Positions 5,031-20,269 of a stretch of DNA of 49,133 nt are shown one piece after another. Below the pieces are notes generated by a model. That model was not told the origin of the DNA. It searched no databases and worked only from the letters and a program-made list of their open reading frames with translations. The position numbers and the translations under genes are program-made. This DNA comes from Desulfobacula sp. (lineage in GTDB: Bacteria > Desulfobacterota > Desulfobacteria > Desulfobacterales > Desulfobacteraceae). Within the stretch, counting starts at the first letter, position 1. Every line of letters begins with the position of its first letter. Location: the NCBI GenBank assembly GCA_018645325.1, contig JABGOU010000030.1:1-49133 (forward strand). The letters are read 5' to 3'.

Positions 5031-6138
5031 CGCCCGCCGGGTGGTTGTGAAATTAGGCAGTAATGTGATCACAGCAGAGAACAGTTTGAACCTTGCCCTG
5101 ATAGAATCCATCTCCAACCAGATCAGCAGCCTTATGGATAAAGGTATTGAGGTGATTCTGGTATCCTCGGGAGCCATGGCAGCCGGGTTGCGGAAAATGG
5201 GAATGGACCGCCGCCCGGAAGAAATTCCAAAGCGACAGGCAATTTCAGCCATTGGCCAGAGTGGACTTATGAACGCCTATGAAAAAAGTTTTAAAGGATG
5301 CGATAAAAAGGTTGCACAGATTCTGTTGACGGCCGAAGATTTAAACAACAGGAAGCGGTATCTGAATGCAAGAAATACCTTGAATACACTCATGAAATGG
5401 AAAGTAGTGCCCATCATCAATGAGAATGATACCATCATGGTTGAAGAAATAAAATTAGGGGATAATGACAATCTTGCCGCCATGATCACCCTGTTGATGG
5501 ATGCTGATTTTTTATTTATTTTAACGGATATTGACGGGTTGTATACCAAGGATCCAAGGATATATCCCAATGCTGAACTGATTCCAAAAGTCACACGTTT
5601 TAAAAAAGAAATTGAAGACTTTGCAAGTGATATTCCCGGGACTCTAGGCACAGGTGGAATGCTCAGTAAAATTCAGGCCGCCCAGAAAACCACTTCAGCC
5701 GGAATTCCTATGATTGTGGCCAGGGGGAATATACCCAATGTATTATGTCATCTTTTTGAAGGCAAAGAGTATGGTACCTATTTTGTTCCTAAAAAAGAAA
5801 AAATGCCCTCCAGGAAATGCTGGATTGCATATACCCTTGCCCCTAAGGGAAGTCTTGTGATTGATGATGGAGCTGTGCATGCTGTTATGCTGAATGGGAA
5901 AAGTCTGCTTGCCATTGGAATATTGTCTGTAGAGGGCGACTTTGAAGAAGGTGCGGCAGTTTCTTTTAAAACAACTGCCAATGAGATCATAGGAATCGGC
6001 CTGGTCAATTATAGATCCCTGGACATTAATTTGATAAAGGGACTGAAAACATCGCAGATCGAGCGCTGTCTTGGCGATAAACACTATGATGAAGTCATTC
6101 ACCGTAACAACCTTGCCCTGAATGATTGTTGCACTTGA
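5008..6138 (+). CDS. proB: Glutamate 5-kinase with C-terminal PUA domain
   Basis: First, usually feedback-controlled step of proline synthesis: ATP-dependent phosphorylation of glutamate. The amino-acid-kinase domain covers about residues 1-260 (VVVKLGSNVI, VSSGAMAAG, PIINENDTI, GDNDNLAA, LTDIDGLYTKDP, GTGGMLSKIQAA). A PUA domain follows (CWIAYTLAPKGSLVIDDGA ...). Total 376 residues, normal for the PUA-containing form. It begins inside the end of proA. The C-terminal tail NDCCT and the TGA stop overlap the degenerate repeat copy at 6125-6247, so the element probably altered the end of this gene. The catalytic core is unaffected. Confidence 0.95.
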   Translation: MPKQRLINARRVVVKLGSNVITAENSLNLALIESISNQISSLMDKGIEVILVSSGAMAAGLRKMGMDRRPEEIPKRQAISAIGQSGLMNAYEKSFKGCDKKVAQILLTAEDLNNRKRYLNARNTLNTLMKWKVVPIINENDTIMVEEIKLGDNDNLAAMITLLMDADFLFILTDIDGLYTKDPRIYPNAELIPKVTRFKKEIEDFASDIPGTLGTGGMLSKIQAAQKTTSAGIPMIVARGNIPNVLCHLFEGKEYGTYFVPKKEKMPSRKCWIAYTLAPKGSLVIDDGAVHAVMLNGKSLLAIGILSVEGDFEEGAAVSFKTTANEIIGIGLVNYRSLDINLIKGLKTSQIERCLGDKHYDEVIHRNNLALNDCCT

Positions 6139-6247
6139 AACAGCCCTGTATGATAGATATTTGTTGCGGCTATTCACTTAACTTCCTGCAAGTATCCATC
6201 AGAAAGGGCTTTGGGGATAGTTTTTTTTTAACGGGCCCAACAATTAC
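6125..6247 (+). repeat. MITE-like element, copy A (degenerate)
   Basis: This is the most diverged of five related elements. It keeps the internal inverted-repeat arms (6143-6163 and 6189-6209) around the loop containing CTATTC-CTTAAC, and the right end reads AACAATTAC. The left terminus is damaged, with only CTTGAAAC and an ATTGTT trace recognisable, and no target duplication is visible. The orientation is the same as copies C and D. It overlaps the last codons and stop of proB. Confidence 0.8.
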
Positions 6248-6284
6248 GAAAATTTAAGATTAATCTTTGTATGGAGGCTGTTTT

Positions 6285-6983
6285 ATGAATATTCAACAAT
6301 TTAAATATTCAAGTGATAATCTGGGATATCTGGTATATTCAAAAAAAGAGGCTATTGCCATTGATCCTGGAGGGGTTGATGATATCCTGGCTTTTGCCCG
6401 GAAGAACAATATTGTTATCAAATATGTATCAAACACCCACTCCCACCATGATCACACCCCGGGTAATAAACAAATGCTTGAAAAAACAAATGCCCGGTTT
6501 ATTGACTGCAAAAAGATAAAATCAGATCAGAGAATTTCCCTTGACAATGAATTTCTGGAAGTTTTTTTTACTCCCGGCCATTCAGAAGATTCAATTACTT
6601 TTGTGGCAAATGAGTTTTTAGTAACCGGCGATACCTTGTTCAACGGGACCATAGGTAATTGTTTTTCAGGTGATTTAAAAGGTTTTTTTAATTCTTTGAA
6701 ACGCCTGATTTCGCTGCCAGAAGAAACTAAAATTTATGGTGGTCACGATTACGTGATGGAATCCATGAAAATGGCAAAGCTCATTGAAAAAGATAATCCG
6801 CATATTAAAGAATATATTAAAAAATATGATCCCGGATTAATTGTATCCACTTTGCAGGATGAATTAAAAACAAACCCTTACATCCGGTTTAATGCACCTG
6901 CTATGATAAATAATTTGCAGAAAAGAAATTTGCAGACAGATACAGAGTATGCCAGATTTAAATCAATAATGGACATATATTAA
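6285..6983 (+). CDS. MBL-fold metallo-hydrolase (glyoxalase II-like)
   Basis: A 232-residue metallo-beta-lactamase-fold hydrolase. The metal motif is THSHHDHTPG (HxHxDH), followed by FTPGHSEDS (second His), GDTLFNG (bridging Asp) and YGGHDY (last His), the pattern of hydroxyacylglutathione hydrolases, with a shortened C-terminal part ending in NNLQKRN. The usual role is hydrolysis of S-acyl thiols, here perhaps of a non-glutathione thiol. I place the start at the ATG at 6285, eight bases after GGAGG; an in-frame TTG at 6267 would include the ribosome-binding site itself. The GNAT gene starts 13 bp after the stop, suggesting an operon. Confidence 0.85.
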   Translation: MNIQQFKYSSDNLGYLVYSKKEAIAIDPGGVDDILAFARKNNIVIKYVSNTHSHHDHTPGNKQMLEKTNARFIDCKKIKSDQRISLDNEFLEVFFTPGHSEDSITFVANEFLVTGDTLFNGTIGNCFSGDLKGFFNSLKRLISLPEETKIYGGHDYVMESMKMAKLIEKDNPHIKEYIKKYDPGLIVSTLQDELKTNPYIRFNAPAMINNLQKRNLQTDTEYARFKSIMDIY

Positions 6984-6996
6984 AGAGATTAAAATT

Positions 6997-7425
6997 TTGT
7001 CGGATCAACAATTGACAGGACTTGTCATAAAAACCATTAAATTTGCATCAAAAAAGGATTTGATAAGGCTTTACACGCAGGCTGGATGGTGGGATACGTC
7101 CTATGATAAAGATCCTGAATTTTTAAATCATATTGTTGAAGATTCAGCTGTCTTTATAGGGGCTTTTCTGGGAAAAAAAATCATTGGAATGGGCCGGGCT
7201 CTTTCCGATCTTGCAAGTGATGCTTATATTCAGGACGTTGCAGTGTTAAAAGAATACAGGGGCAAAGGAATCGGCAGACAAATTATTCAAGCTTTAATAT
7301 CAAAATTAAAGGAAAATGGTGTTGACTGGATCGGCCTTGTTGCCCAACCGGGAACATCTTATTTTTATGAGAAACTTGGATTTGAAGTGCTTAAAGATCA
7401 TGTTCCGTTAAAATATAAGGGATGA
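6997..7425 (+). CDS. GNAT-family N-acetyltransferase
   Basis: A 142-residue single-domain acetyltransferase. The acetyl-CoA pyrophosphate loop is clear in VAVLKEYRGKGIGRQIIQALI (R/QxxGxG/A = YRGKGIG), and the C-terminal GTSYFYEKLGFEVLKDHVPL is the usual last strand region. The substrate is unknown. The gene appears to start with TTG at 6997, with AAGAGAT seven bases upstream; there is no ATG near the N-terminus. It lies 13 bp after the metallo-hydrolase and probably shares its transcript. Confidence 0.82.
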   Translation: MSDQQLTGLVIKTIKFASKKDLIRLYTQAGWWDTSYDKDPEFLNHIVEDSAVFIGAFLGKKIIGMGRALSDLASDAYIQDVAVLKEYRGKGIGRQIIQALISKLKENGVDWIGLVAQPGTSYFYEKLGFEVLKDHVPLKYKG

Positions 7426-7515
7426 TCAAATCTATAAAAAATCATCATGCCATACAAGCTTGATAGCTTGCCGGATAAGTCTTATACCATTTAAATTCAA
7501 AATTTAATTTAGTTC

Positions 7516-7543
7516 TTGACTTTTTTGATTATTGATATATTAT
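7516..7543 (+). promoter_or_regulatory. Sigma-70-type promoter for the cold-shock gene
   Basis: TTGACT (7516-7521) and TATTAT (7538-7543) are separated by 16 bp. Transcription would start near 7550 and leave about 130 nt of untranslated leader before the ATG at 7679. Long leaders that refold in the cold are a known feature of csp mRNAs; whether this one does so is inference. Confidence 0.5.
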
Positions 7544-7678
7544 TTTGCGAACTGCGACTGATTTATGTGAAGCGCAGAGGTTTCATTCCAAAGGTCTATC
7601 CCGATTAAATAAAAGGAATTGCCCTTAAAGTTATCGAAACTCGTATTATTCTTATTTTTATTACAGGAGATTGCCAAC

Positions 7679-7879
7679 ATGGCTAATGGTATCGTAAAAT
7701 GGTTTAACGACTCAAAAGGTTTTGGATTTATCGAACAAGAAGGCGGAAAAGATGTATTTGTGCATCATTCAGGCATCAATTCAACAGGTTTTAAATCCCT
7801 GAATGAAGGGGATCGTGTCTCCTTTGATATTGAAGAAGGACAAAAAGGTCCTGCTGCAACAAATGTAACCGTGCTATAG
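7679..7879 (+). CDS. Cold-shock protein (CspA family)
   Basis: A 66-residue OB-fold RNA chaperone of standard length. RNP1 (KGFGFIE, residues 13-19) and RNP2 (VFVHHS, about 26-31) are intact, and the N-terminus (GIVKWFND) is typical. The protein binds single-stranded RNA/DNA and melts structures during cold stress or growth resumption. The start at 7679 has AGGAGA eight bases upstream. The frame opens further up, but that part encodes no family sequence. The gene is a single unit with its own promoter (7516-7543) and terminator (7929-7970). Confidence 0.95.
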
Positions 7880-7928
7880 TTAGCCGTTTTATTTGTTTTA
7901 AAAAGTCATCTTGGTGACTTGAAAAAGT

Positions 7929-7970
7929 AAAGTCCCTGAACAGGTTAATGTTAAGGGACTTTTTGTTTTA
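7929..7970 (+). terminator. Rho-independent terminator after the cold-shock gene
   Basis: A perfect 9-bp stem (AAAGTCCCT at 7929-7937 pairing with AGGGACTTT at 7954-7962) with a 16-nt loop is followed by TTGTTTTA. It lies 50 bp after the csp stop. Confidence 0.85.
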
Positions 7971-8350
7971 AATGCCAATATTCTGTGTCATGGCAAAATA
8001 AATAAATCCATTCTTGATATTTCTATTCTTGATTTACCCACCCCTATATTTATTCATAAGGAAAAAGTAAGATCACAAGTGAAGAGACAGGCTGGAAGAA
8101 AAATCCAATTTGATTTTGACAAAGCCTTGAATTCTGTTCCCAGTCAGTGTACCCTTATGAACACGGTCTGACAGTTTGCATGTTTTATGGTCATAAATGG
8201 GTGAGCTATCAGGTTTGTCAATATATTTGGTACTTTGATCACTAAGGTTCAGCCATAAATGGCTTAGAAGCGTTTCATTATAAAGAAACCAGAGATTTTT
8301 CAACTGCTAAGTGGTTTATGAAGGTATTAATTTAAAAAAGAGGAGGACAG
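7971..8350. other. Non-coding gap with one small palindrome
   Basis: No gene is supported on either strand. A perfect 14-bp palindrome AGCCATAAATGGCT lies at 8251-8264, about 87 bp before the next start codon. It might be an operator for the downstream hypothetical gene, but nothing else backs this. Confidence 0.35.
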
Positions 8351-8899
8351 ATGGAGCCTGAAAAATTTCGAGAATCCAGGCTGGCAATAAACCAGTTATG
8401 CAAAAATATTGATCTCTTAATTGAGCAAAAGGATCTTGAAGCTTCAAAAGAAGGTTTTGAGGAAGTAAGTTCCAAGTTGGATATACTAAAACCCCAGGCA
8501 GAAGGTGAAATCCAGAAACGTTCTGTAAAAAATCTGGGCATTAAACTCAAGGGATTGTCAATCTTTATCGCCAAATTAAAACCCAAGAAAAAACCGGCCG
8601 CAAAAAAAGCTCCAAAAATTTTTATCAGCTGGGATGAAGAACGCCTTGGCCAATTGTCTCCTGCTTTTTTGAAAAAAGTATTTATGAATATGGGAAATGA
8701 TACAGCTGCAACGATTTGTTTCGGCACCACTGGAAAAGGTATCAGGCCCAGTTATCAGATCGAATTTGGCAACCAGGAAACCAAAGCGTTTACAGGCTCC
8801 GGTCACAAACCCCAGAAAAAATTCCTTTCACCCGACACAAAAAAGATATCCCAACCCTTTTCCTATGATGTAATTGATTCAATTCTGCAAGGAAAATAA
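8351..8899 (+). CDS. Hypothetical basic protein
   Basis: A 182-residue soluble protein that I do not recognise. Residues 1-70 are predicted helical with alternating charges. A lysine-alanine-proline linker (KPKKKPAAKKAPK, about residues 77-89) follows, and then a probable small globular domain (KIFISWDEERLGQLSPAFLKKVFMNMGND...). The layout of helical part, basic linker and compact domain would fit nucleic-acid or partner binding, but this is inference. The start has an excellent GAGGAGGA seven bases upstream. It stands between the csp gene and the LUD/DUF166 pair, 73 bp from the latter. Confidence 0.7.
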   Translation: MEPEKFRESRLAINQLCKNIDLLIEQKDLEASKEGFEEVSSKLDILKPQAEGEIQKRSVKNLGIKLKGLSIFIAKLKPKKKPAAKKAPKIFISWDEERLGQLSPAFLKKVFMNMGNDTAATICFGTTGKGIRPSYQIEFGNQETKAFTGSGHKPQKKFLSPDTKKISQPFSYDVIDSILQGK

Positions 8900-8972
8900 A
8901 CAGGACATGACATTTCAAATTTTGTTTATAGTGTGATTTTTCGTTCAAACACTAATTAGGAAAGGATACAAA

Positions 8973-9626
8973 ATGAAAAAACCCATTGATAATTATTGGA
9001 ACCTTAAACTTGAGTCTTTAAAGGAAAATCTTGAAAAAAATAATTTTGAAGTTTTTATTGCACAGAATGCAAAGGATGCAAAAGAAATAGCTGTTAATGA
9101 TATTATTCCAGGCCTTGATATTAAAAGTGTTTCCTGGGGAGGGTCAATGTCTTTTGTTTCAACAGGCCTTTTCCATGAACTAAAGGATAACCCTGATATT
9201 GAAGTTCTCAACACCTTTGATACACGCATTTCAAAAGAAGAGATGATGGACCTGCGGCGACGGTCTTTAATGACTGATTTGTTTATTACGGGTACAAATG
9301 CAGTAACTGAGGCAGGACACCTTGTTAATCTTGATATGATGGGGAACAGGGTTGCTGCAATAATGTGGGGGCCAAAGAATGTTTTGCTGGTAATAGGCAG
9401 AAATAAAGTATGCGGAGACCTGGAAGATGCCATGATCAGGATAAAAAATTATGCTGCTCCCGTTAATACCATGAATCTTGACAAGAAAACGCCCTGCAGC
9501 AAGACCGGAGTATGTCATGACTGCAGCAGTCCTGACAGGATTTGCAATTACTGGACAATTACAGAAAAAAGTTTTGTAAAGAAAAGGATTAAGATTATTC
9601 TGGTAAATGAAGACTTAGGATTTTAA
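8973..9626 (+). CDS. LUD-domain (LutC/YkgG-like, DUF162) protein
   Basis: A 217-residue LUD-domain protein. LutC proteins take part in L-lactate oxidation together with Fe-S partners, but many single LUD proteins in anaerobes have unknown roles. Seen here are the SVSWGGSMSF and LFITGTNAVTEAGHLVNLD blocks, the NRVAAIMWGPKNVLLVIGRNK core and a cysteine-rich tail (TPCSKTGVCHDC...DRICNYW) that could hold a metal or Fe-S centre. AGGAAAGG precedes the ATG. The DUF166 gene begins three bases after the stop, so the two are almost certainly co-translated. No lutA or lutB is nearby. Confidence 0.85.
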   Translation: MKKPIDNYWNLKLESLKENLEKNNFEVFIAQNAKDAKEIAVNDIIPGLDIKSVSWGGSMSFVSTGLFHELKDNPDIEVLNTFDTRISKEEMMDLRRRSLMTDLFITGTNAVTEAGHLVNLDMMGNRVAAIMWGPKNVLLVIGRNKVCGDLEDAMIRIKNYAAPVNTMNLDKKTPCSKTGVCHDCSSPDRICNYWTITEKSFVKKRIKIILVNEDLGF

Positions 9627-9629
9627 ATC

Positions 9630-10256
9630 ATGCAGAAAATAATGGTTTTCCAGCAAAATGGATCTGGAAAGACTAAAATAGATGGCATGAATAAATTTGG
9701 CAGGGGAAAATTTATTATTGAAACCTTTGACATTGACGAACCCCTGCCGACAGTGCTTGATGATACATCACCCTATCTTCCTGAAACCATTGATGCAGAT
9801 ATTGTGGTTGATTATTTAAAACATCGGGACCTTTCAGATGACTTAAGTGCTTTGTGTGAAAAATTGAATATCCCGGTGATTGCTTCAGGGAAAAAAATAA
9901 CAACGGGAAAAGCCCTGTGTCCTAAAGTTTGCTGTGCCCTTCCCGGGCAGGGCCGGCTCGGGGAATACAGCAATGTATTTGGAATGCCTGAAATTGAGAT
10001 AGTAATTGAAAAGGATATGATTACCCGGATTAAGGTATTAAAAGGTGCGCCCTGTGGTGCAACATGGAATGCGGCCGCAAAGATAAAAAATATGCCCATT
10101 GAAACTGCATTGACGCGATTTGGTTTGGAGGTTCAGTTCTTTTGTTCGGCAGATCCATCAGCCTGGGACCCACTTTGGGGGAAAAGTCCGGTTCATCTGG
10201 CGGCTGACATCCATACTGCGGTTTTAAAAGCTGTTCTAAAGAAAAAAAAATTGTAA
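9630..10256 (+). CDS. DUF166-family protein
   Basis: A 208-residue protein matching the DUF166 family known mainly from methanogens and sulfate reducers (sometimes labelled thymidylate-synthase-like without firm proof). Conserved parts seen are CPKVCCALPGQG, VFGMPEIEI, KVLKGAPCGATWNAA and FFCSADPSAWDPLWGKSP. The cysteine pair and the CGAT loop are likely functional sites. It follows the LUD gene by three bases. Its TAA stop (10254-10256) lies inside the first terminal repeat of the inserted element at 10253-10387, so the lysine-rich C-terminus (KKKKL) is partly a product of the insertion site. Confidence 0.8.
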   Translation: MQKIMVFQQNGSGKTKIDGMNKFGRGKFIIETFDIDEPLPTVLDDTSPYLPETIDADIVVDYLKHRDLSDDLSALCEKLNIPVIASGKKITTGKALCPKVCCALPGQGRLGEYSNVFGMPEIEIVIEKDMITRIKVLKGAPCGATWNAAAKIKNMPIETALTRFGLEVQFFCSADPSAWDPLWGKSPVHLAADIHTAVLKAVLKKKKL

Positions 10257-10387
10257 TTGTTCAGCCCGTTAAAAAAAATTATCCCCAAAGCCATGTCTGA
10301 TGGATATTTGCAGGAGGTTAAGCGAATAGCCTCGAAACAAATATCCACCAGGCAGGGCGGTTTCAAGCGTAAGAGCTGAATAATTAC
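10253..10387 (-). repeat. MITE-like element, copy B, with 8-bp target duplication
   Basis: A 135-bp element ending in GTAATTGTTCAGC (left) and GCTGAATAATTAC (right), which are inverted repeats matching at 12 of 13 positions. Internal arms of 21 bp (10290-10310 and 10338-10358) enclose a 27-nt loop. The octamer AAAAAATT flanks it on both sides (10245-10252 and 10388-10395), proving a transposition-type insertion. Both terminal repeats provide TAA stop codons, one to the DUF166 gene and one to the convergent acylphosphatase gene. The strand is given relative to copies A, C and D, which lie in the other orientation. Confidence 0.92.
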
Positions 10388-10677
10388 AAAAAATTTGAAT
10401 ATTTGATTTCAAATGTTTTAAAATTAGTTAAGGCTTTTACATTTTGTGTCAGTACATTTTCAACCCTGGATAATTCAGGCCCTTTCCAGCACCAGTCTAT
10501 CATCTTGGCAATAGACTTTTGATCTCCTTCAAATAAGGCTTCCACAGATCCATTTGCAAGGTTTTGAACATATCCTTTAATGCCAAGTATATCAGCTGTA
10601 GTTTTGGTATGTGCTCTGTAAAAAACTCCCTGAACCCGACCTTTGATGATAACCTTGATTTGTTCTTTATTCGGCAT
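10384..10677 (-). CDS. acyP: Acylphosphatase
   Basis: A 97-residue enzyme hydrolysing acyl phosphates. The signature KGRVQGVFYRAHT contains the phosphate-binding loop and catalytic Arg, and GYVQNLANGSVEALFEG contains the catalytic Asn. The last family strand, FEIKY, lies just before the end. The start at 10677 has AGGAG eight bases upstream. It overlaps the end of dinB by 11 bp. Its stop codon lies within the terminal repeat of the inserted element, so the last few residues (SNFL) flank the insertion. A substrate link to the acyl-phosphate chemistry of the proline pathway nearby would be speculation. Confidence 0.93.
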   Translation of the reverse strand: MPNKEQIKVIIKGRVQGVFYRAHTKTTADILGIKGYVQNLANGSVEALFEGDQKSIAKMIDWCWKGPELSRVENVLTQNVKALTNFKTFEIKYSNFL

Positions 10678-11848
10678 TGGGCTTTCTCCTGCTAAAATTA
10701 TTAAGGGATGCTTTTTTAATTGTATCAGAACCAAATTTTTCCGATATTGAATCCACTGCAGTATCCACGGACTCCCATTGTTCTTTTGGCATGTCATGGT
10801 CCTGTATCAGCTGCATCTGGACCGGGGTGTTTTTATCTTTGAGTGCGGTGACTCCTACACCAACCAGCCTTATTTTCTTTTTTAATACGATTTTTTCATA
10901 AAGGCTGAGTGCTTTATGGAAAATAGCAGATGAAGAACAAATGGGGGAATCAAGCTTTTTACTCCTGGTGATCTGTGAAAAATCGGAAAACTTAAGCTTG
11001 ATAAATACATTTTCGCACACAAGGTTTTTTTTTCTTAGATCCCTGCCAACGCTTTGAGACCTGTCCAGTATCACTTGTTTAATGGTTTCAAAATGAAAAA
11101 TATCCTTAGAAAGTGTTGTTTCACTGGAAATAGATTTTCTGATGTAATTTGTTGTCACCCTTGATGAATCAATGCCATTTGAAAGCGCTAAAAGTTTTTG
11201 ACCCAGTTTACCAAATTTCTGGGTTAATATTGGCAGAGGATATTTTTTTACATCTCCCAGGGTTTTGATCTGCAAAATTTCCATTTTTTTCATGGCGCTT
11301 TGTCCAATTCCAGCGACTTTCTTTATGGGCAGGGTAAAAATGAAATTTTTTACCTGGTGTTCTTTAATATGGGTTAATCCATCCGGCTTATTCATGTCTG
11401 ATGCAATTTTAGCCAGAAATTTAATGGGTGCAATCCCGATGGAACAAGTTAAAGACAGATCATTTTTGATCTTGTCTTTTATGGCAAAAGCAATTTTTTC
11501 CGGTGAACCAAACAGCCTTTCACATCCCTTGATATCAACATATGCCTCATCAATGGAAACCTGTTCCATTAATGGAGAAAAATGTGAAATGATTTCCATT
11601 ATTTTTTTTGAATCCGCCTTATATTTTCTCATACTCCCGGGAACAATAATTAATTGTTCGCATTTTTTTTTTGCCTGAAATACGGGCATGGCAGAATGGA
11701 TACCGAATAATCTTGCCTCATAGCTTGCCGTTGACACTACACTTCTTTCTGAATTTCCTGATACCGCCACGGGTTTGTTCCTTAGGCCAGGGTTATCCCT
11801 TTGTTCAATTGCCGCAAAAAATGCATCCATGTCAATGTGCAATATCAT
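10667..11848 (-). CDS. dinB: DNA polymerase IV (Y-family, translesion)
   Basis: A 393-residue error-prone polymerase. The palm carboxylates are seen in HIDMDAFFAAIEQ (N-terminus) and SIDEAYVDI (about residues 100-108), with STASYEARLFGIHSAMP in the fingers, the HhH thumb (KVAGIGQSAMKKMEILQI) and a little-finger domain to about residue 345. It lies 15 bp after the K+ channel gene and overlaps the acylphosphatase start, so the three form one minus-strand operon. No LexA-type box is recognised just upstream, and expression is likely driven from before the channel gene. Confidence 0.95.
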   Translation of the reverse strand: MILHIDMDAFFAAIEQRDNPGLRNKPVAVSGNSERSVVSTASYEARLFGIHSAMPVFQAKKKCEQLIIVPGSMRKYKADSKKIMEIISHFSPLMEQVSIDEAYVDIKGCERLFGSPEKIAFAIKDKIKNDLSLTCSIGIAPIKFLAKIASDMNKPDGLTHIKEHQVKNFIFTLPIKKVAGIGQSAMKKMEILQIKTLGDVKKYPLPILTQKFGKLGQKLLALSNGIDSSRVTTNYIRKSISSETTLSKDIFHFETIKQVILDRSQSVGRDLRKKNLVCENVFIKLKFSDFSQITRSKKLDSPICSSSAIFHKALSLYEKIVLKKKIRLVGVGVTALKDKNTPVQMQLIQDHDMPKEQWESVDTAVDSISEKFGSDTIKKASLNNFSRRKPNAE

Positions 11849-11863
11849 TTTTGCCAGACCCCA

Positions 11864-12904
11864 TCACCCATTATATTTTCTGAACCGCTTGAGGGATTCA
11901 ACGTCTGCCTGGAGGACAATCGTGTCTCCTGCTTCTATGATCATTGAACGTTTTGGGTTGTAAATGATGCTTGGATTGTCAGACCTTATCAGCGCAAGAA
12001 TAAGGAGCTGGGTAAAGTCAGGAAAGCTAATGTCGCCTACCTTTTGGCCTGTTAGTGGAGATTTTTTTGAAATGGTAATGTCCTCGATACGAACAACGCA
12101 GTCCTTGTCGCGCATCATAACATCAAGGTAGCGTACTACTCTTGGACGAACAATCTGCGAAGCGATTCTAAGCCCGCCTATAGAATTTGGCATTACCACT
12201 TCTGCGCCGAGTAATTCAAGTTTGCTTATAAACTCACTGTCACTGCAGCTTGAAAACAGCTTTATTAGTGGGTTAAACTGTTTACAGGTCACAACAACGC
12301 AGAGGTTGTCTTTGTCGTCGTCAAGGGCAGAAATTACTGATTTGGCTTTTTTTACACCTGCACTCTGCAGAAAATCAGCATGGGTAGCATCCCCTATTAC
12401 AGATGGAAAATTCCCAAACTGCCTCTGTAAATTTTTGATTAATTTTATATCTGAATCTATCAGGACAAATGATGCACCAGTAAGCTGAAGTTCCTTAAAA
12501 ACATAGTAGCCAACTCCAACACGTGTAGCACCGCATAAAATAATATGTCCGGCAAGTTTACTGATTTGTCTTTCCATTCTTTTTCTCCAAAAAACATTGG
12601 TCAGTTCTCCCTCCACTAAAAAGGCGGTAAGGGTTGAAACAAAATAAGCAGCTATGCCTAGTCCGCTAAACAGTATAAAGATTGTGAACAGCCTTGAACC
12701 CGGGACCACGCTAAGATCAATCACTTCGCCAAACCCAACGGTGGTAAGAGTTATGATGGTCATGTAAAAACTGTCACCAAGAAGCCAGGGGGGATCTGGT
12801 TGAGCAAATTGCCCCAGCAGGTAGTACCCTGCTGTACCGATCAGGGTCACAGCCAGTAATAAGATACCGGCAAGATAAATTCTTTTTTGGGGATCATCCG
12901 ACAT
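11864..12904 (-). CDS. K+ channel protein with RCK (TrkA-N/TrkA-C) domains
   Basis: A 346-residue inner-membrane channel subunit. TM1 is about residues 8-30, the pore helix and selectivity filter are TLTTVGFGEV (about 53-62), and TM2 is about 72-96. A Rossmann RCK domain follows (HIILCGATRVGVG, VLIDSD, VIGDATHADFL), then a TrkA-C domain near residues 255-340 (SPLTGQKVGDISFP). The glycine motif is slightly degenerate (CGATRVGVG rather than GxGxxG), so ligand preference is uncertain. A MITE copy lies only 23 bp upstream of its start codon and may have displaced or replaced the promoter. Confidence 0.9.
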   Translation of the reverse strand: MSDDPQKRIYLAGILLLAVTLIGTAGYYLLGQFAQPDPPWLLGDSFYMTIITLTTVGFGEVIDLSVVPGSRLFTIFILFSGLGIAAYFVSTLTAFLVEGELTNVFWRKRMERQISKLAGHIILCGATRVGVGYYVFKELQLTGASFVLIDSDIKLIKNLQRQFGNFPSVIGDATHADFLQSAGVKKAKSVISALDDDKDNLCVVVTCKQFNPLIKLFSSCSDSEFISKLELLGAEVVMPNSIGGLRIASQIVRPRVVRYLDVMMRDKDCVVRIEDITISKKSPLTGQKVGDISFPDFTQLLILALIRSDNPSIIYNPKRSMIIEAGDTIVLQADVESLKRFRKYNG

Positions 12905-12927
12905 AAAAACCTGATTTAAGCTTATTA

Positions 12928-13062
12928 GTAATTATTCAGCTCTTGCGCTTGAACCCGCCCTGTCTGATAGATATTTGTTTCGAGGCTATTCGCTTAACCT
13001 CCTGCAAATATCCATCTGACAGGGCTTTGGGGATAACTTTTTTTAACGGGCTGAACAATTAC
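12928..13062 (+). repeat. MITE-like element, copy C
   Basis: 135 bp with terminal repeats GTAATTATTCAGC (12928-12940) and GCTGAACAATTAC (13050-13062) and internal arms at 12957-12977 and 13005-13025. The flanking octamers GCTTATTA and ACTTATTT share six of eight positions, probably an eroded target duplication. It sits in the region before the K+ channel operon. The rest of the gap up to 13322 holds nothing I can support. Confidence 0.9.
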
Positions 13063-13322
13063 ACTTATTTTATCTTAATTAATCCTCTTTGGATGAATAG
13101 GATAGGAACTTACTTTTTGTCAAGTTAATCCGATTAAAGTCAATAAAAAAACGGGTATTTTTGTGCCGTCTGATAATGATTTAATATTCCTTTACACAAA
13201 TTCTAAACATTGATATTGAAGTATCAATCGGAATTTTAAATTGTTTCAGGTTGGATACCACACCATTATATTACATTACCTAAGATTTTAACAAGCCTGC
13301 ATTCAACAAAAGTTTTATTCAA

Positions 13323-14117
13323 ATGATTTGGAAAATTTTATTATATGCTTTGACCGGATATCTTGCCCTGTGCGCCATGGTTTTTATATTTCAGCGAAAA
13401 ATGCTCTATCTGCCGGATCACAGCAAGTTGTCAAAGAAGAGTGCAATGGACGAAGGGTTGCTCCATTGGCCTTTGTTTGAAAATTTTCAAGGATTTGTCA
13501 CTCAAGAGGAACCCATTGATTCAAAAGGCACTGTTATAGTATTCCATGGCAATGCAGGTACAGCCTATCATCGCAGCTTCTATGCCAGGGCCCTTTCAAT
13601 TCAAAACCTACGGGTTATTCTGGCGGAATATCCCGGCTATGGTGGCCGTGCCGGACAACCCCGTGAAGATGTGTTGGTAAAGGATGCAGTTAAAACTATG
13701 AGGCATGCCTATAAGGAGTATGGAAAGCCCTTGTATATCTGGGGTGAGTCTCTTGGATGTGGAGTGGTTGCAGGTGCCGTTAATAAAATTGACATTCCCA
13801 TAAAGGCAATAGTTTTGTTTTTGCCATGGGATTCGCTGTCAAATCTTGCTCAAACCCATTACAGGTTCCTTCCTGCGCGTTGGCTGGTTCTGGATAAATT
13901 TAATAATATTGATAACCTTAAAGGATTTAAAGGGAATATTGCTGTCATACTGGCTGGAAAAGATGAGGTTATTCCTTTTCACCATGGTAAAAAACTTTAT
14001 GATTCAATAACAGCAAATAAGAAACTATGGTTATTTAAAGATGCAAAACATAATGAAATGCCTGTTGAAGCAGAACTTCACTGGTGGAAAGAGGTCATAA
14101 CCTTTATTTCGCAGTAA
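13323..14117 (+). CDS. Alpha/beta hydrolase (BEM46-like), membrane-anchored
   Basis: A 264-residue serine hydrolase. An N-terminal hydrophobic segment (residues 2-22) probably anchors it in the inner membrane. The oxyanion region is VIVFHGNAGTA, the nucleophile elbow GESLGCG (Ser near residue 142), the acid region VILAGKDEVIPF and the histidine DAKHNEMP, matching the BEM46/YfhR group. The substrate is unknown, with esterase or thioesterase activity as the usual guess. The ATG at 13323 has no clear ribosome-binding site. It is a single gene with repeat copy D 51 bp downstream. Confidence 0.85.
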   Translation: MIWKILLYALTGYLALCAMVFIFQRKMLYLPDHSKLSKKSAMDEGLLHWPLFENFQGFVTQEEPIDSKGTVIVFHGNAGTAYHRSFYARALSIQNLRVILAEYPGYGGRAGQPREDVLVKDAVKTMRHAYKEYGKPLYIWGESLGCGVVAGAVNKIDIPIKAIVLFLPWDSLSNLAQTHYRFLPARWLVLDKFNNIDNLKGFKGNIAVILAGKDEVIPFHHGKKLYDSITANKKLWLFKDAKHNEMPVEAELHWWKEVITFISQ

Positions 14118-14168
14118 ACTCTATGGCTTTTATCTGGAATCCCAGGGCAATCGCATGTAAACAATATT

Positions 14169-14302
14169 GTAACTATTCAGCTCTTATGTTTGAAACCGCC
14201 CTATCCGATGGATATTTGTTTCGAGGCTATTCGCTTAACCTCCTGCAAATATCCATCAGACAGGGCTTTGAGATAACGTCTTTTAACGGGCTAAACAATT
14301 AC
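14169..14302 (+). repeat. MITE-like element, copy D, with 8-bp target duplication
   Basis: 134 bp with terminal repeats GTAACTATTCAGC (14169-14181) and GCTAAACAATTAC (14290-14302) and internal arms at 14198-14218 and 14246-14266. The octamer ACAATATT is perfectly duplicated at 14161-14168 and 14303-14310. It lies between the hydrolase and leuS, ending 209 bp before the leuS start. The rest of this gap (14311-14511) should contain the leuS promoter, but I cannot assign boxes with confidence. Confidence 0.92.
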
Positions 14303-14511
14303 ACAATATTTTGCTCTGTTATCAGCACCAATGATTGTAATTGTCGGCACAGCAACGAGTTCAGGTCAGTTTGCCTTGGATGAGCATTTTGGGAATTCTT
14401 GTAATTCGCTTGATTTTCTTGCTATTTGCGTTTGATTGTGGCATCTATAAAAACTCAAAATAAAGAAACGGTAATTCAATATAGAAGAAGCTTTCACAAG
14501 GAGTAAGTGCA

Positions 14512-17115
14512 ATGGAGGAACGATATCATCCTGAATTGGTAGAGCCCAAATGGCAGGCATATTGGAAAGAAAATCAAGTTTTCAAAGTAAGAGAGGATAC
14601 ATCAAAAGAAAAATATTATTTATTGGAAATGTTCCCTTATCCTTCCGGTAAAATTCATATTGGTCATGTGCGCAATTATACAATTGGTGATGTGGTTGTC
14701 AGATACAAACGCATGAAGGGATTTAATGTCCTCCATCCCATGGGATGGGATGCATTTGGTATGCCTGCTGAAAATGCAGCCATTGATAATAACACCCATC
14801 CTGCAGCATGGACCTATGAGAATATAAGCGCCATGAGAGAGCAGCTAAAAAAAATGGGATTTTCATATGACTGGGATCGTGAGCTCGCCACCTGCAGGCC
14901 GGAATATTATAAATGGGAGCAATGGCTTTTTCTTAAAATGCTGGAAAAGAAAATGGCCTATCGAAAAGAATCATATGTAAACTGGTGTGAGAAATGTCAG
15001 ACTGTTCTTGCTAATGAACAGGTTGAACAAGATAAATGCTGGAGATGCTCTAAGACGGTTCAGCAAAAAAAACTCTGGCAATGGTATTTTAAAATTACAG
15101 ATTATGCGGAAGATCTTCTTGTTCACTGTGATAAATTGCCTGGATGGCCTGATAAAGTAACTGTAATGCAGAAAAACTGGATTGGTAAAAGTATAGGGTC
15201 TGCATTAAAATTCAAAATTGATGGCAAAAATGAAGATATAGAAGTTTTTACCACCAGGCCAGACACTATTTTCGGTGCAACTTTCATGTGCCTTGCACCG
15301 GAGCATCCTCTGGTTGAAACCCTTTCCAGGGGAACAAAACAGGAAGATCAGGTCACAGCATTTGTTCAAAAAGTATCCAGCCAGGAAAGATCTGCCGAAG
15401 GTATTGAAAAATACGAAAAAGAAGGAGTCTTTACTGGAGCCTTCTGCATTAATCCGGCCACATTAGAAAAGGTTCCTGTTTATACAGCCAATTTTGTTTT
15501 AATGGAATATGGAACAGGAGCTATCATGTCTGTACCGGCCGGTGACCAGAGAGATTTTGATTTTGCCCGGAAATATGGGCTTGAAATCAGGGTTGTGGTC
15601 CAGCCGGAAGGGGACACTCTTGACGGGACTACCATGGAAGAAGCTTATACTGGAGACGGTTTTATGGTGAATTCCGGTGAGTTTAACGGGCTGGACAATA
15701 AAAAAGCTATGGATGTGATGACGAACTGGCTTGAAAAAAAGGGCAGGGGGCAAAAAACTATTTCCTATCGGCTCAGAGACTGGGGGATTTCAAGACAAAG
15801 ATACTGGGGAGCCCCCATTCCTGTTATTCATTGTCCGGATTGTGGAGCCGTTCCAGTTCCCAAATCAGATCTTCCCATAAAACTTCCTGAAGATGCCAAT
15901 ATTCTGGAAAAAGGGGGTTCTCCTTTACCGACACTTGATTTTTTTGCAAAAGCCACATGTCCTGAATGCGGCAGAAAGGATGCAAAAAGAGATACAGATA
16001 CCATGGATACATTTGTAGAATCTTCATGGTATTATTTAAGATATTGCTCTCCCCGATATGAGGGGGGTATGTTTGATCATGATGCAGTAAAATATTGGGC
16101 ACCCGTGGATCAATACATAGGAGGTGTAGAACATGCAGTTCTTCACCTGTTATATTCCCGGTATTTTATGAGGGTGCTGCATGCCCTTGGAATGATTGAT
16201 TTTAAAGAACCTTTTACACGGCTTTTGACCCAGGGCATGGTCTGTAAAGAGACCATGACCTGTCCTGATCATGGATATCTTTTCCCAGAAGAAGCATTGA
16301 AAGAAGACAAGGGCAATCTTGTATGTACAAAATGCAAAAAGGATGTGGAAGTGGGCAGGGTCATTAAAATGTCAAAATCCAAGAAAAATGTGGTTGACCC
16401 AAATGAGCTGCTTGAAAAATATGGTGCAGATGTGACAAGGCTGTTCTGCCTGTTTGCGGCTCCTCCTGAAAGAGACCTTGAGTGGAGTGAAGACGGGGTT
16501 GAGGGCAGCCATAGATTTGCAAACAGGGTGTGGCGGTTTGCCATGGAATGCCTGGAAAAAATAGATGGTTTAAAACCCTTTAAAGGAGCAGCGTCAGATC
16601 TATCCTCAAAACAGGCAAAAGATCTTTACATCAAAGCAAATCAGACCATACAAAAGGTTACTGATGATATTGATAAAAGTTTTCATTTTAACACGGCCAT
16701 TTCAGCCGTAATGGAACTTGTTAATGTGCTTTATTCAATTGATCTTGATTCTGCAGATGATGAATTGAAAAAAGTGATCCTGTTCAGTCTTGAAAATATT
16801 ATTTTATTGTTGAGTCCCATTCTTCCGCATTTTTGTGAAGAATTGTTTGAAAAGCTGGGCAGAACCGGTTCAATCATTGAACAACCCTGGCCTGAATACA
16901 GAAAAGATTCTATTAAAACAGATGAGGTTATTGTTGTTGTTCAGGTCAATGGTAAGCTTCGTTCAAAGTTTACCATTGATGCAGGTGTTGAAGAGGCAAT
17001 CATCAAAGAAAAAGCCCTGGCTGATGAAAAGATTTTAAAATACGTGGGAGATAAAAAGCCCAAAAAAATTATAATTATTAGAAAAAAACAGACACTCATA
17101 AATATCGTGGTTTAA
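14512..17115 (+). CDS. leuS: Leucyl-tRNA synthetase
   Basis: An 867-residue class I aminoacyl-tRNA synthetase of bacterial type. HIGH is present as HIGH at residues 49-52 (YPSGKIHIGHVRNYT), the zinc-binding cysteines as CEKC...CWRC, the CP1 editing domain around TTRPDTIFGATFM and the GTGAIMSVPAGDQRD block, and KMSKS at about 619-623, with the anticodon-binding helical domain and C-terminal domain after that. AAGGAG lies ten bases upstream of the ATG. lptE begins one base after its stop, so they are co-transcribed, as in many proteobacteria. Confidence 0.97.
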   Translation: MEERYHPELVEPKWQAYWKENQVFKVREDTSKEKYYLLEMFPYPSGKIHIGHVRNYTIGDVVVRYKRMKGFNVLHPMGWDAFGMPAENAAIDNNTHPAAWTYENISAMREQLKKMGFSYDWDRELATCRPEYYKWEQWLFLKMLEKKMAYRKESYVNWCEKCQTVLANEQVEQDKCWRCSKTVQQKKLWQWYFKITDYAEDLLVHCDKLPGWPDKVTVMQKNWIGKSIGSALKFKIDGKNEDIEVFTTRPDTIFGATFMCLAPEHPLVETLSRGTKQEDQVTAFVQKVSSQERSAEGIEKYEKEGVFTGAFCINPATLEKVPVYTANFVLMEYGTGAIMSVPAGDQRDFDFARKYGLEIRVVVQPEGDTLDGTTMEEAYTGDGFMVNSGEFNGLDNKKAMDVMTNWLEKKGRGQKTISYRLRDWGISRQRYWGAPIPVIHCPDCGAVPVPKSDLPIKLPEDANILEKGGSPLPTLDFFAKATCPECGRKDAKRDTDTMDTFVESSWYYLRYCSPRYEGGMFDHDAVKYWAPVDQYIGGVEHAVLHLLYSRYFMRVLHALGMIDFKEPFTRLLTQGMVCKETMTCPDHGYLFPEEALKEDKGNLVCTKCKKDVEVGRVIKMSKSKKNVVDPNELLEKYGADVTRLFCLFAAPPERDLEWSEDGVEGSHRFANRVWRFAMECLEKIDGLKPFKGAASDLSSKQAKDLYIKANQTIQKVTDDIDKSFHFNTAISAVMELVNVLYSIDLDSADDELKKVILFSLENIILLLSPILPHFCEELFEKLGRTGSIIEQPWPEYRKDSIKTDEVIVVVQVNGKLRSKFTIDAGVEEAIIKEKALADEKILKYVGDKKPKKIIIIRKKQTLINIVV

Positions 17116-17116
17116 T

Positions 17117-17626
17117 ATGAAAAATTTAAAATGGATTTTATTTGCAGTTCTGCTTGTATCTGTTGCTTCCTGTGGGTATCAGTTTGAAGGCGGCGGATAT
17201 ATTAACAAAAATGTGAACAGTGTTGCTGTAAGAGTTTTGAAGAATCAAAGTTCTGAAACAGGAGCCGGAATAGCATTTACCAATGCTTTAATTCAGGAGA
17301 TACTTCAAAAGACAGATACCAGAGTTGTAGATGAATTAAGTGCTTCAGCTTTTATTGAAGGAACCGTAAAAGCAATTACATTTGCCACCTTGTCTCGTTC
17401 TACAACACAATCTGTATTAGAAAGAAGAGTCTGGGCTGCAATGGATCTGAAACTGATAAACAGGGACGGTGAGTTGATCTGGTCTGTGTCGGATTTTGTA
17501 TCGTATGAAGACTACAGAGTATCACAGGATAAGATTACGGATGAATTCAATAAAAAAGCAGCTGTGGAAAAAATAGCCATTCGAATTTCTGAAAAATTAA
17601 TCAGCAAGCTGATGAATAATTTTTAG
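17117..17626 (+). CDS. lptE: LPS-assembly lipoprotein LptE
   Basis: A 169-residue outer-membrane lipoprotein that plugs and supports LptD in lipopolysaccharide insertion. A lipoprotein signal peptide is clear (hydrophobic LFAVLLVSVASC, lipobox VASC with Cys near residue 19), followed by the family's GYQFEGG and NSVAVRVLKNQS motifs. The leuS-lptE order is the common proteobacterial arrangement. It has no ribosome-binding site of its own beyond the end of leuS and is probably translationally coupled. Confidence 0.9.
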   Translation: MKNLKWILFAVLLVSVASCGYQFEGGGYINKNVNSVAVRVLKNQSSETGAGIAFTNALIQEILQKTDTRVVDELSASAFIEGTVKAITFATLSRSTTQSVLERRVWAAMDLKLINRDGELIWSVSDFVSYEDYRVSQDKITDEFNKKAAVEKIAIRISEKLISKLMNNF

Positions 17627-17639
17627 TATTAAAATCAGG

Positions 17640-17679
17640 AAGACAGGATTTATTTTCTAAAAATAATAAATCCTGTCTT
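17640..17679. terminator. 15-bp hairpin between convergent lptE and rpsT
   Basis: A perfect 15-bp stem (17640-17654 with 17665-17679) and 10-nt loop lie between the stop of lptE and the stop of rpsT, which converge. The T-runs on either side are weak (AATTATTTG rightward, CCTGATTTTAA leftward), so it may terminate both transcripts imperfectly or protect 3' ends. Confidence 0.7.
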
Positions 17680-17708
17680 GAATTATTTGAACCAAAAAGC
17701 CCGTAAGA

Positions 17709-17963
17709 CTATGAATTCATAAATTTGAATAGTCTTGAAATTTTTCTGGAAGCAGTCTTTTTATGGAGAACACCTTTTTTAGCGGCTTTGTGAAGGGCAG
17801 ATTGAGTTTTTCTCATGAGTTCATCTTTAGAATCACTACCCGCCTCTTTTGCAGCTTTAAGATTTTTTTCCAAATTTTTAAGAGAGGTTTTTACAGATCT
17901 GTTTCTAAGCCGTCTTACCTGACTCTGTTTTGCACGTTTCTTTGCAGATTTATGGTTAGCCAA
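17709..17963 (-). CDS. rpsT: 30S ribosomal protein S20
   Basis: An 84-residue basic 16S-rRNA-binding protein of standard length, with N-terminus ANHKSAKKRAKQSQ and C-terminus HKKTASRKISRLFKFM typical of S20. The start codon is TTG at 17963; no ATG is available in the conserved N-terminus. AAGGAG lies ten bases upstream. E. coli rpsT also begins with UUG, and that weak start is tied to translational autoregulation by S20; the same may apply here. The gene has its own strong promoter at 18026-18054 and is divergent from murJ. Confidence 0.97.
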   Translation of the reverse strand: MANHKSAKKRAKQSQVRRLRNRSVKTSLKNLEKNLKAAKEAGSDSKDELMRKTQSALHKAAKKGVLHKKTASRKISRLFKFMNS

Positions 17964-18025
17964 CTTGGTCTTGCTCCTTGTTTAAGTGTATTGAATTTAT
18001 AATTTCACCTTATTTTAAGACAATC

Positions 18026-18054
18026 AGATTATATGTAATGTTGATTTTTGTCAA
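18026..18054 (-). promoter_or_regulatory. Sigma-70 promoter of rpsT
   Basis: Read on the minus strand, consensus TTGACA (18054-18049) and TAATCT (18031-18026) are spaced by 17 bp, about 63 bp upstream of the rpsT TTG. The -35 box overlaps the ribosome-binding region of the divergent murJ gene. Confidence 0.75.
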
Positions 18055-18063
18055 GGAAAACTT

Positions 18064-19611
18064 GTGAGGAAAATGTTAAAAAATACAGTATTGTTAAGCA
18101 TTTTAACTTTTGCCAGTCGTGTTCTTGGGATTATAAGAGATGCTGTAATTGCCATGTATTTTGGCACATCTTCCCAAAGCGATGCTTTTTTTATTGCTTT
18201 CCGCCCTTTTGATCTAGTCAGAAAATTATTTTCAGAAGGAGTTCTGAACCTTTCATTTGTGCCTCTGTTTTCTGAAACCCTGGAAAAGGATGGTCGCAAT
18301 AGAGCTATTGCCCTGGCGTTTTCTTTTTTTTGTTTTTTATCTATTGCCGGTATTCTTGTTGTGTTGACCGGTCTTTTTTTTGCACCTTTGGTCATAAAAA
18401 TTATTGCCCCGGGATTTATAATTTATTCCTATAAGTATGGACTGACCATTATATTGTTCAAAATAATGCTTCCTTATTTCTGGCTGGTTCTTATTGCTGC
18501 ATTTTGTATGGGAGTACTAAATTCTCTGGGAAGTTTTGGGGTTCCGGCTCTTGCTCCCGTTGTATTTAATCTGGTGGTGATATGGTTTGCACTCATGATA
18601 TCAAAATATTTTGATACCCCGATAATTGGCCTGGCAATGGGTGTGACCATTGGTGGACTGGTTCAGATTTTTATCCAGATTCCTTTTATGATTCGTATGG
18701 GAATATTAAAAATACCGCGGCTTAAATTTTTTGATTCCAGGGTATTTAAGGTCATAAAAATAATGGTTCCCTGTATGATTGGGGCAGCCGCCTTTCAGAT
18801 AAATATTGCCGTGGCCTCCTTTTTTGCTTCAAAACTCGATGAAGGCAGTGTGTCCGCATTTTACTATGCAGACCGGCTGGTTCAATTTCCCATGGCCCTT
18901 TTTGCAGTTTCTGCCTCAACAGTGCTATTGCCTGAATTTTCAAAAAAGGCCGCTCTGGGGAATATGAATGAAATTGCACAATTGTTTTCAGCCGGAGTAA
19001 AGATTGTTTTTTTTATTACAATTCCTGCAATGGCAGGATTGATGGCCTTAGATGACAAAATTGTTGCACTTTTATTCGGATATGGGGCTTTTAATGCAAA
19101 TGCCATTCAGCAGACGGCAGAATGCCTGATTTTTTTGAGCTCAGGGTTATGGGCATTCACCGGGGTTAGATTGTTTGTCACATTGTATTATGCCCTGTCC
19201 AATATAAGAATTCCATTATATTCCGGAATCATTGCTGTTTTCTTGAATCTGGTTTTCTGTTATTTATTTATAGGCAGCCTTGGACTTAAGGGTCTTGGTA
19301 TATCAGTTTCCCTCTCTGCCATGGCTGGATTTATTATTTTATTTATCAATATTCCCGGTACCGTGAATATTGATAAATTTGAAATCATGGTTTCTGCTTG
19401 CAGATCACTTTTTTTATCTGTTATAATGTTTTTTATTGTCAAACAGGCGGCCTTTTTTATACCGGCAGCAGGGAATAACAAATTTTTATTTGGGGCAGGA
19501 GTGATTATTTGCATATGTTTTGGAATGGTGTTTTACTTTAGTGCAAACTTCTTTATTTCAAGCCCTGAATTGAAATTGTTAAAAAATGGGTTCACCAGGA
19601 ATAAATTATGA
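18064..19611 (+). CDS. murJ: Lipid II flippase MurJ (MviN)
   Basis: A 515-residue polytopic inner-membrane protein of the MOP superfamily that exports lipid II for peptidoglycan synthesis. The N-terminal block TFASRVLGIIRDAVIAMYFG with the conserved Arg residues, the downstream FRPFDLVRKLFSEG and the FYYADRLVQFPMALFAVS block are diagnostic. About 13-14 hydrophobic helices can be counted. I take GTG at 18064 as start because AGGA lies six bases before it; the ATG at 18073 (MLKNTVLL) has GAGG only three bases away. It overlaps the next gene by ATGA. Confidence 0.93.
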   Translation: MRKMLKNTVLLSILTFASRVLGIIRDAVIAMYFGTSSQSDAFFIAFRPFDLVRKLFSEGVLNLSFVPLFSETLEKDGRNRAIALAFSFFCFLSIAGILVVLTGLFFAPLVIKIIAPGFIIYSYKYGLTIILFKIMLPYFWLVLIAAFCMGVLNSLGSFGVPALAPVVFNLVVIWFALMISKYFDTPIIGLAMGVTIGGLVQIFIQIPFMIRMGILKIPRLKFFDSRVFKVIKIMVPCMIGAAAFQINIAVASFFASKLDEGSVSAFYYADRLVQFPMALFAVSASTVLLPEFSKKAALGNMNEIAQLFSAGVKIVFFITIPAMAGLMALDDKIVALLFGYGAFNANAIQQTAECLIFLSSGLWAFTGVRLFVTLYYALSNIRIPLYSGIIAVFLNLVFCYLFIGSLGLKGLGISVSLSAMAGFIILFINIPGTVNIDKFEIMVSACRSLFLSVIMFFIVKQAAFFIPAAGNNKFLFGAGVIICICFGMVFYFSANFFISSPELKLLKNGFTRNKL

Positions 19612-19910
19612 CAATGGTTGAAAAAATAGGTTTTTATATTTCAATATTTATCGTTTTGATATTATTATTTTTCATTTTTTTTTCAAAAAATGCTGTTTTA
19701 GATCATAAAATGTTAAAAGGAAAGGAAAGATCTGTTTTAAGCCAGATCCAGACAATTGACCAGGAAAATGAAAAACTTGAAAATGAAATTAAAAGTTTAA
19801 AAACAGATATTAATTATATTAAACATGTTGCAAAACACGAACATGATATGGCTGAAGAAGATGAGCTTATTTTCAAAGATAAATCCGGTAGTAAAAGGAA
19901 GACACCATGA
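19608..19910 (+). CDS. Septum-formation-initiator-like (FtsB/DivIC family) protein
   Basis: A 100-residue single-span membrane protein. One TM helix (about residues 6-26) is followed by a coiled coil (LSQIQTIDQENEKLENEIKS...) and the pattern LKTDINYIKHVAKHEHDMAEEDE, which matches the LExDxxYIExIARExxxM signature of FtsB/DivIC. FtsB bridges FtsL and FtsQ in the divisome. Coupling to murJ by a 4-bp ATGA overlap fits a cell-wall or division role. The match is by pattern rather than strong identity, so I do not assign a gene symbol. Confidence 0.72.
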   Translation: MTMVEKIGFYISIFIVLILLFFIFFSKNAVLDHKMLKGKERSVLSQIQTIDQENEKLENEIKSLKTDINYIKHVAKHEHDMAEEDELIFKDKSGSKRKTP

Positions 19911-20182
19911 ATCATGAATTAAAAACACTTGAAATTGCTAAGATTTATGAAAGTCAGGGCTATTTTGAAGAGGCTCTTAAAATTTATTCATTTCTGGATG
20001 GCCGAAAAACCTCTTTTGAGATCAGGGCAGGCTTAGAGCGAACGACCAAAAGAGCGGATGATAAAAGCCAGGGCTGTCATCCTGAAGAAAACATATCCAG
20101 ACTTTATCAAGAATGGCTGGAGTTGATGGTTTTAAAACATAGGCTGGATAATTTTAAAAAATTATCCCAAAGCCCTGTCTAA
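19907..20182 (+). CDS. Small TPR-like protein, C-terminus formed by a MITE
   Basis: A 91-residue protein starting in an ATGA overlap with the FtsB-like gene. Residues 7-30 (LEIAKIYESQGYFEEALKIYSFL) resemble one tetratricopeptide repeat, and the rest is helical and charged. The last residues (about NFKKLSQSPV) and the TAA stop are read from the inserted element at 20148-20269, so the original end of the gene has been replaced. It may have been longer. It is the third gene of the murJ operon. Confidence 0.65.
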   Translation: MNHELKTLEIAKIYESQGYFEEALKIYSFLDGRKTSFEIRAGLERTTKRADDKSQGCHPEENISRLYQEWLELMVLKHRLDNFKKLSQSPV

Positions 20183-20269
20183 TGGATATTTGCAGGAGGT
20201 TAAGCAAATAGCCTCGAAACAAATATCCATCAGACAGGGCAGGTTCAAGCGTAAGAGCTGAATAATTAC
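20148..20269 (-). repeat. MITE-like element, copy E (left end lost)
   Basis: The right terminal repeat GCTGAATAATTAC (20257-20269) and internal arms (20172-20192 and 20220-20240) are intact; arm mismatch is a single base in the left arm. The left terminus is shortened, with roughly 10-15 bases missing, and I find no target duplication. The orientation is as copy B. It provides the stop codon of the preceding gene and lies 95 bp before the LysM gene. Confidence 0.88.

Follow-up and report, generated by a model that had tools for sequence, protein, structure and literature searches.

The repeats scattered along this stretch of Desulfobacula DNA form a MITE family, and we consider it highly likely that the family was moved in trans, most probably by the single-gene, ISBst12-type transposase of an IS66-family element. 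According to this scenario, a geneless element with 13-bp ends would have reached about 140 positions in its own genome, most of them intergenic, through copying by a trans-acting transposase, the most likely source of which would be a single-gene ISBst12-type element of the IS66 family. The moving element would have carried ends close to GTAAYTRTTCAGC and produced 8-bp target duplications, and it would since have been lost from the genome or left out of its assembly. That an ISBst12-type transposase did the moving is what we infer from the ends and the duplications, and such trans mobilisation appears well supported at the level of sequence comparison.

The window, by which we mean the whole stretch of 49,133 nucleotides that was analysed, is part of contig C82 in a MAG of 4.39 Mb (G000; 157 contigs, 90.3% complete). 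The five copies originally described in it were borne out: B, C and D are complete, and A and E each lack one end. Copy B (10253..10387, minus strand) and copy C (12928..13062, plus strand; equivalent to L089 1501-1635) cover the model from 1 to 135, and copy D (14169..14302, plus strand; equivalent to L089 2742-2875) is full-length with the variant ends GTAACTATTCAGC / GTAATTGTTTAGC. The termini first given to copies A and E, 6125 and 20148, are not true ends. The model matches copy A at 6129..6247 on the plus strand (model 16-135; nhmmer E 1.6e-28), where the left end is gone and the right TIR has 2 mismatches, and copy E at 20155..20269 on the minus strand (model 1-116), where one end and some of the flank are gone. 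The rest of the window holds no sixth copy above the inclusion threshold, the next match having an E-value of 0.066 (nhmmer --max). The stop codons of two ORFs, 19907-20182 and 5008-6138, lie inside copies E and A, respectively; the second ORF encodes AA_kinase and PUA domains, and the two insertions may have altered the ends of these genes.

The consensus is 135 bp long, with 13-bp ends, 21-bp inner arms and a 27-nt loop; the TIRs, arms and loop of the intact copies are as first described. Both ends of copy B fit the TIR consensus, GTAATTRTTCAGC, and the subterminal sequence is GTAATTGTTCAGCCCGTTAAAA. In copy C the internal palindrome occupies 12957..13025 (plus strand; coordinates counted by hand from the sequence), and folding of this copy and of the consensus gives two 21-bp arms, with mismatches, around the 27-nt loop. 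The two ends of the element are unlike at the seventh base, which is A on the left in 54 of 55 full copies of the genome and G on the right in 50 of 55. The element has the build of a MITE, with TIRs, a size below about 300 bp and no transposase gene, and the repeat family is confirmed as real and as a MITE. The variant ends of copy D are shared by a subfamily that includes copies of two congeners, G001 and G009 (L123, L128 and L131), the L131 copy having one further end change.

The target duplications support transposition. Copies B and D are flanked by perfect duplications of 8 bp, as first described: AAAAAATT at 10245..10252 and 10388..10395 for B (8/8), and ACAATATT at 14161..14168 and 14303..14310 for D (8/8), all read on the plus strand. 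The duplication of copy C is eroded, with 6 of 8 flanking bases alike, and in copies A and E one side of the duplication is gone. We then examined 55 distinct full copies of the genome, a non-random sample: BLAST with copy C supplied 30 loci as its best matches, and the remaining loci were stretches picked for holding TIR matches. The 85 matches reduced to 71 distinct ones, of which 55 were full and 16 partial, a locus edge cutting at least two of the partial copies. Most of these copies keep the duplication: it is perfect at 8 bp in 37 and has at most one mismatch in 46, the shuffled mean being 0.8 perfect at this length. Duplications of 4-7 or 9-12 bp were at chance level (0 or 1 perfect), and the 18 copies with no perfect duplication divide into nine with one mismatch and nine with more. 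Moreover, at the loci of relatives recovered by the full-length DNA search, 10 of 12 distinct full copies, trimmed to the model ends and with one duplicate dropped, were perfect at 8 bp and all 12 had at most one mismatch. The targets are A+T-rich.

The original prediction also implied that orthologous loci should exist in an empty state, and such sites were found. For each of three insertions we compared the genomes in which both flanks, copied by hand as pairs, lie near each other on one contig, the others being excluded (8, 20 and 11 rows, respectively). At the first site (L192 2775-2909) the flanks are contiguous in the congener G024: our genome is longer there by 143 bp, that is 135 + 8, and the target TAATTTTT is present once in G024. 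This is the one clean case at the site, as the flanks are about 1 kb apart in six of the eight rows and 139 bases apart in G001. Several congeners therefore carry about 1 kb between the two flanking genes and G024 almost none; with the MITE set aside, our genome also has almost nothing there, and G008, outside the eight rows, has about 1 kb. At the second site (L188 6736-6870), 18 of the 20 congeners are shorter by 94-170 bases, G009 is shorter by 58 and G018 by 5, and none of the 20 rows has a base-exact junction. The third site (L189 9935-10069) is near-exactly empty in G014, with a difference of 144 and small changes at the junction; in nine of the 11 rows the sequence is 98-157 bases shorter, the exceptions being G001 (24) and G013 (longer by 89). 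Within the window, the leucyl-tRNA synthetase gene (Pfam) has its best relatives largely in Desulfobacula and other Desulfobacterales MAGs, and we therefore regard the host as Desulfobacula-like. Copy E was the sole window copy testable at the loci of relatives around this gene, as no match was obtained there with the flanks of copies A, B or C or with the upstream side of D. L080 lacks copy E and has 15 bp at its position, consistent with loss of the end of E through a deletion. The 80 loci of relatives around this gene contain no MITE match.

These duplications and the exact empty site must be set against another reading of the same repeats, namely a REP/BIME-like or regulatory hairpin family (a terminator or an RNA element) that is not mobile and is kept by host selection. 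The copies indeed fold into a strong hairpin (z of -2.1 for copy A and between -5.4 and -9.4 for the other four) and are nearly always intergenic, as such a family would be. However, the 8-bp duplications and the exact empty site speak against such a family, and so do the data on the hairpin itself. The inner stem shows a single both-side change in 2098 cells and 140 broken ones, private substitutions are not significantly fewer in the arms than in the spacers (P 0.31), terminator-like sites are at the shuffled number (13 vs 13.9), and the window has no Rfam match. An apparent two- to fourfold lower divergence of the arms and TIRs did not hold up when private and shared variants were taken separately (P 0.31 and 0.18), and was discarded. 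Following insertion, no significant constraint on the long palindrome could be recognised, and the hairpin family, already disfavoured, is in our opinion highly improbable.

How far has the MITE spread? A search of the whole genome with a 24-nt core, allowing at most 3 mismatches, gave 139 matches, and the same search of its relatives gave 46 in G008, 29 in G001, 1 in G009 and none in any of the remaining 22 of the 26 genus genomes searched; the reversed control gave 0 in all 26. The full-length DNA search led to the same four genomes (G000, G001, G008 and G009), with 3 matches in G009, although it scored part of its candidates and its counts are not copy numbers. The exact TIR 13-mer occurs 105 times forward and 93 times reverse in our genome (198 in total; reversed control 0), and with one mismatch 146 + 135 times vs 2 + 4 in the control; such abundance is not due to chance. 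At 135 bp each, 139 copies amount to about 0.4% of the genome, and the mean divergence of full copies from the consensus is 4.5% (range 0 to 13.3%). The idea of a burst confined to 14 kb is therefore not supported, as the copies are spread genome-wide. About 1.6 copies would be expected in 49 kb vs the 5 seen, with a Poisson P of about 0.02 that is uncorrected for the choice of the window. In 349 kb of chosen stretches, 85% of which are coding by the same crude ORF calls, one copy out of 36 lies within a predicted ORF; this is copy D, in a short ORF of 99 aa. Plasmid and phage sequences gave no MITE match, and neither did viral contigs, which were scanned for one exact 28-mer. The family offers insertion markers within Desulfobacula. 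Two unusual copies were also observed. One of 66 bp (L152 2986-3052, contig C67 of our genome) has both ends, no palindrome and flanks alike at 7 of 8 bases by eye, and it either moved without the palindrome or lost it afterwards. The other (L147 3020-3226, contig C13) has about 68 bp of non-MITE sequence within it, which might be a further small element.

We then asked which enzyme might have moved the MITE. Its ends are those of IS66-family transposons in related species, and it has therefore very probably spread by means of an IS66-type enzyme. Among the 58 genomes searched for the exact 13-mer, 54 have it 0-3 times, G043 has it 4 times, and G018, a congener devoid of the MITE, has it 21 times. 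Many of the 21 lie about 105-117 bases from contig starts, a pattern that arises when contigs break within a repeated IS. The ten 13-mers in the nine G018 stretches inspected all match, by BLAST, the left or the right terminus of a single IS66 element, one of the ten belonging to a remnant without the gene. The whole element (L140 2097-3855; 1,759 bp) has the ends GTAATTATTCAGC / GTAACTATTCAGC and an 8-bp duplication, TATAATTT (L140/L155). Its single gene encodes 471 aa with the PF03050 DDE_Tnp_IS66 domain (9.1e-47) and PF20042, and no other ORF of at least 75 aa lies inside it. Relatives were found in G013 (80%, one stop), G006 (a fragment, 82%) and G002 (a relic). In the same taxonomic family, L194, L195, L198 and L199 hold IS66-type elements with similar ends and perfect 8-bp duplications, and L193 and L196 have such ends and no duplication, the duplications of these six elements being judged by eye; the likeness of the ends to those of the MITE was noted for L194-L196. 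Outside this lineage, ISDge4 of Deinococcus geothermalis, assigned by its authors to the ISBst12 group of IS66, has the TIRs GTGACTACTCAGCA / GTAACTGCTCAGCA with an 8-bp repeat and was observed to transpose (PMC12898284). The GTAA-type ends of this group (ISDge4 and the G018 element) are near-identical to those of the MITE over 13 bp and share the 8-bp duplication, and ISDge4 and the MITE are alike in having an unlike seventh base at their two ends. The G018 element differs from the MITE here, with A at the seventh base of both ends. The MITE, moreover, is 135 bp long and geneless, and internal to its terminal 13-14 bp it has nothing visible in common with the G018 element; by eye, no subterminal likeness extends beyond the first 13-14 bases of the G018 ends. 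The MITE is thus not visibly a deletion derivative of an IS66 element and, as the terminal 13-14 bp are all that it has in common with known ISs, its direct parent is missing.

The attribution to an IS66-type element consequently held in part: an element with the same 13-mer ends and the same duplication length exists in a congener, but our genome gives no such element, and an autonomous partner elsewhere in it, as first proposed, is not supported. The G018 transposase as query had 0 matches in our assembly and in G009, and one distant match each in G001 (1.2e-6) and G008 (5.6e-21); a profile of seven transposases matched in G008 alone (9.1e-38). No pair of such ends surrounds the distant IS66 genes of G008 and G001, and both were rejected as partners; what was seen near them were two isolated imperfect sites, one with 1 mismatch at a distance of about 1.9 kb and one with 2 mismatches at about 1.1 kb. 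PF03050 is found in our genome as two pieces on contig C106; compared with the MITE, this broken IS66 relic has no matching end pair, a lone 2-mismatch site and no match to the ISBst12-type transposase, and it was likewise rejected. About 4.4 kb separates the two parts of the relic (L173 3115-3381 and 7754-7828), and this intervening DNA seems to carry tyrosine-recombinase-like genes, so named from inspection of the ORF sequences by eye. Among 90 TIR-like sites in the sampled stretches of our genome, 85 lie in MITE matches and five outside, one of these being the 66-bp remnant and four showing no IS in the 60 bases inspected. No intact partner was therefore found (0 matches in a 90%-complete assembly); its absence is not proven, because the MAG is 90% complete. 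Within the genus, the MITE genomes (G000, G001, G008 and G009) and those with close IS66 relatives (G018, G013, G006 and G002) do not overlap, as would be expected by chance about half the time.

Such results leave some room for a true MITE served by a transposase of another family, with ends resembling IS66 by accident and a partner outside the assemblies. The lack of a partner in our genome, the mere 13-14 bp common to the MITE and IS66 elements and the distribution of the 90 TIR-like sites would all fit. Nevertheless, we find this unlikely, because the 13-bp end and the 8-bp duplication together fit IS66 elements of the genus and family as well as ISDge4, and because a 13-mer that is rare in nearly all genomes is abundant in G018, where every inspected occurrence is the end of an IS66 element. 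Trans mobilisation by an ISBst12-type transposase, the reading we favour, may itself have taken two courses. In one, the MITE was amplified alongside a resident ISBst12-type element, whose absence from the assembly would be due to the breaking of contigs at repeated ISs. This is quite possible, if somewhat short of an even prospect: the MAG is incomplete and fragmented and several G018 contigs stop inside the IS, but our genome has no transposase fragment of the right type, its sampled stretches have no IS end, and the G018 copies are visible despite the contig breaks. We propose the other course only tentatively, namely that the MITE is an orphan whose approximately 140 copies outlived an ISBst12-type enzyme that came and went, and that it was cross-mobilised through 13 bp of shared ends, its interior (the 69-nt palindrome) being unrelated to the IS. 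If trans mobilisation is correct, an ISBst12-type transposase would need no more than about 13 bp in order to work on unrelated DNA, and end recognition in this little-studied IS group would become directly testable.

The family is new, very probably of the IS66/ISBst12 type, and ordinary in kind. In the parts of the open literature searched we found no MITE tied to an IS66 element, and some paper may hold one; among the best 10 of 24,793 matches for the 13-mer ends in paper texts, one, an iPSC study, contained one 13-mer. Close comparisons can also be made with other short, geneless bacterial elements. IS-derived MITEs such as MITECca01 of Cardinium are, like the present family, short, geneless, multi-copy, mainly intergenic and lineage-specific (PMC9769881). 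However, MITECca01 derives from another IS family, IS982, and keeps the subterminal sequence of its resident parent (PMC9769881), whereas neither a parent nor a subterminal match was found here. MITEPsy1 and MITEPsy2 of Pseudomonas syringae are also short geneless elements with inverted ends; they are assigned to 'IS5?' and to an unknown family, and are present in few copies (PMC3189936), compared with about 140 for the MITE described here.
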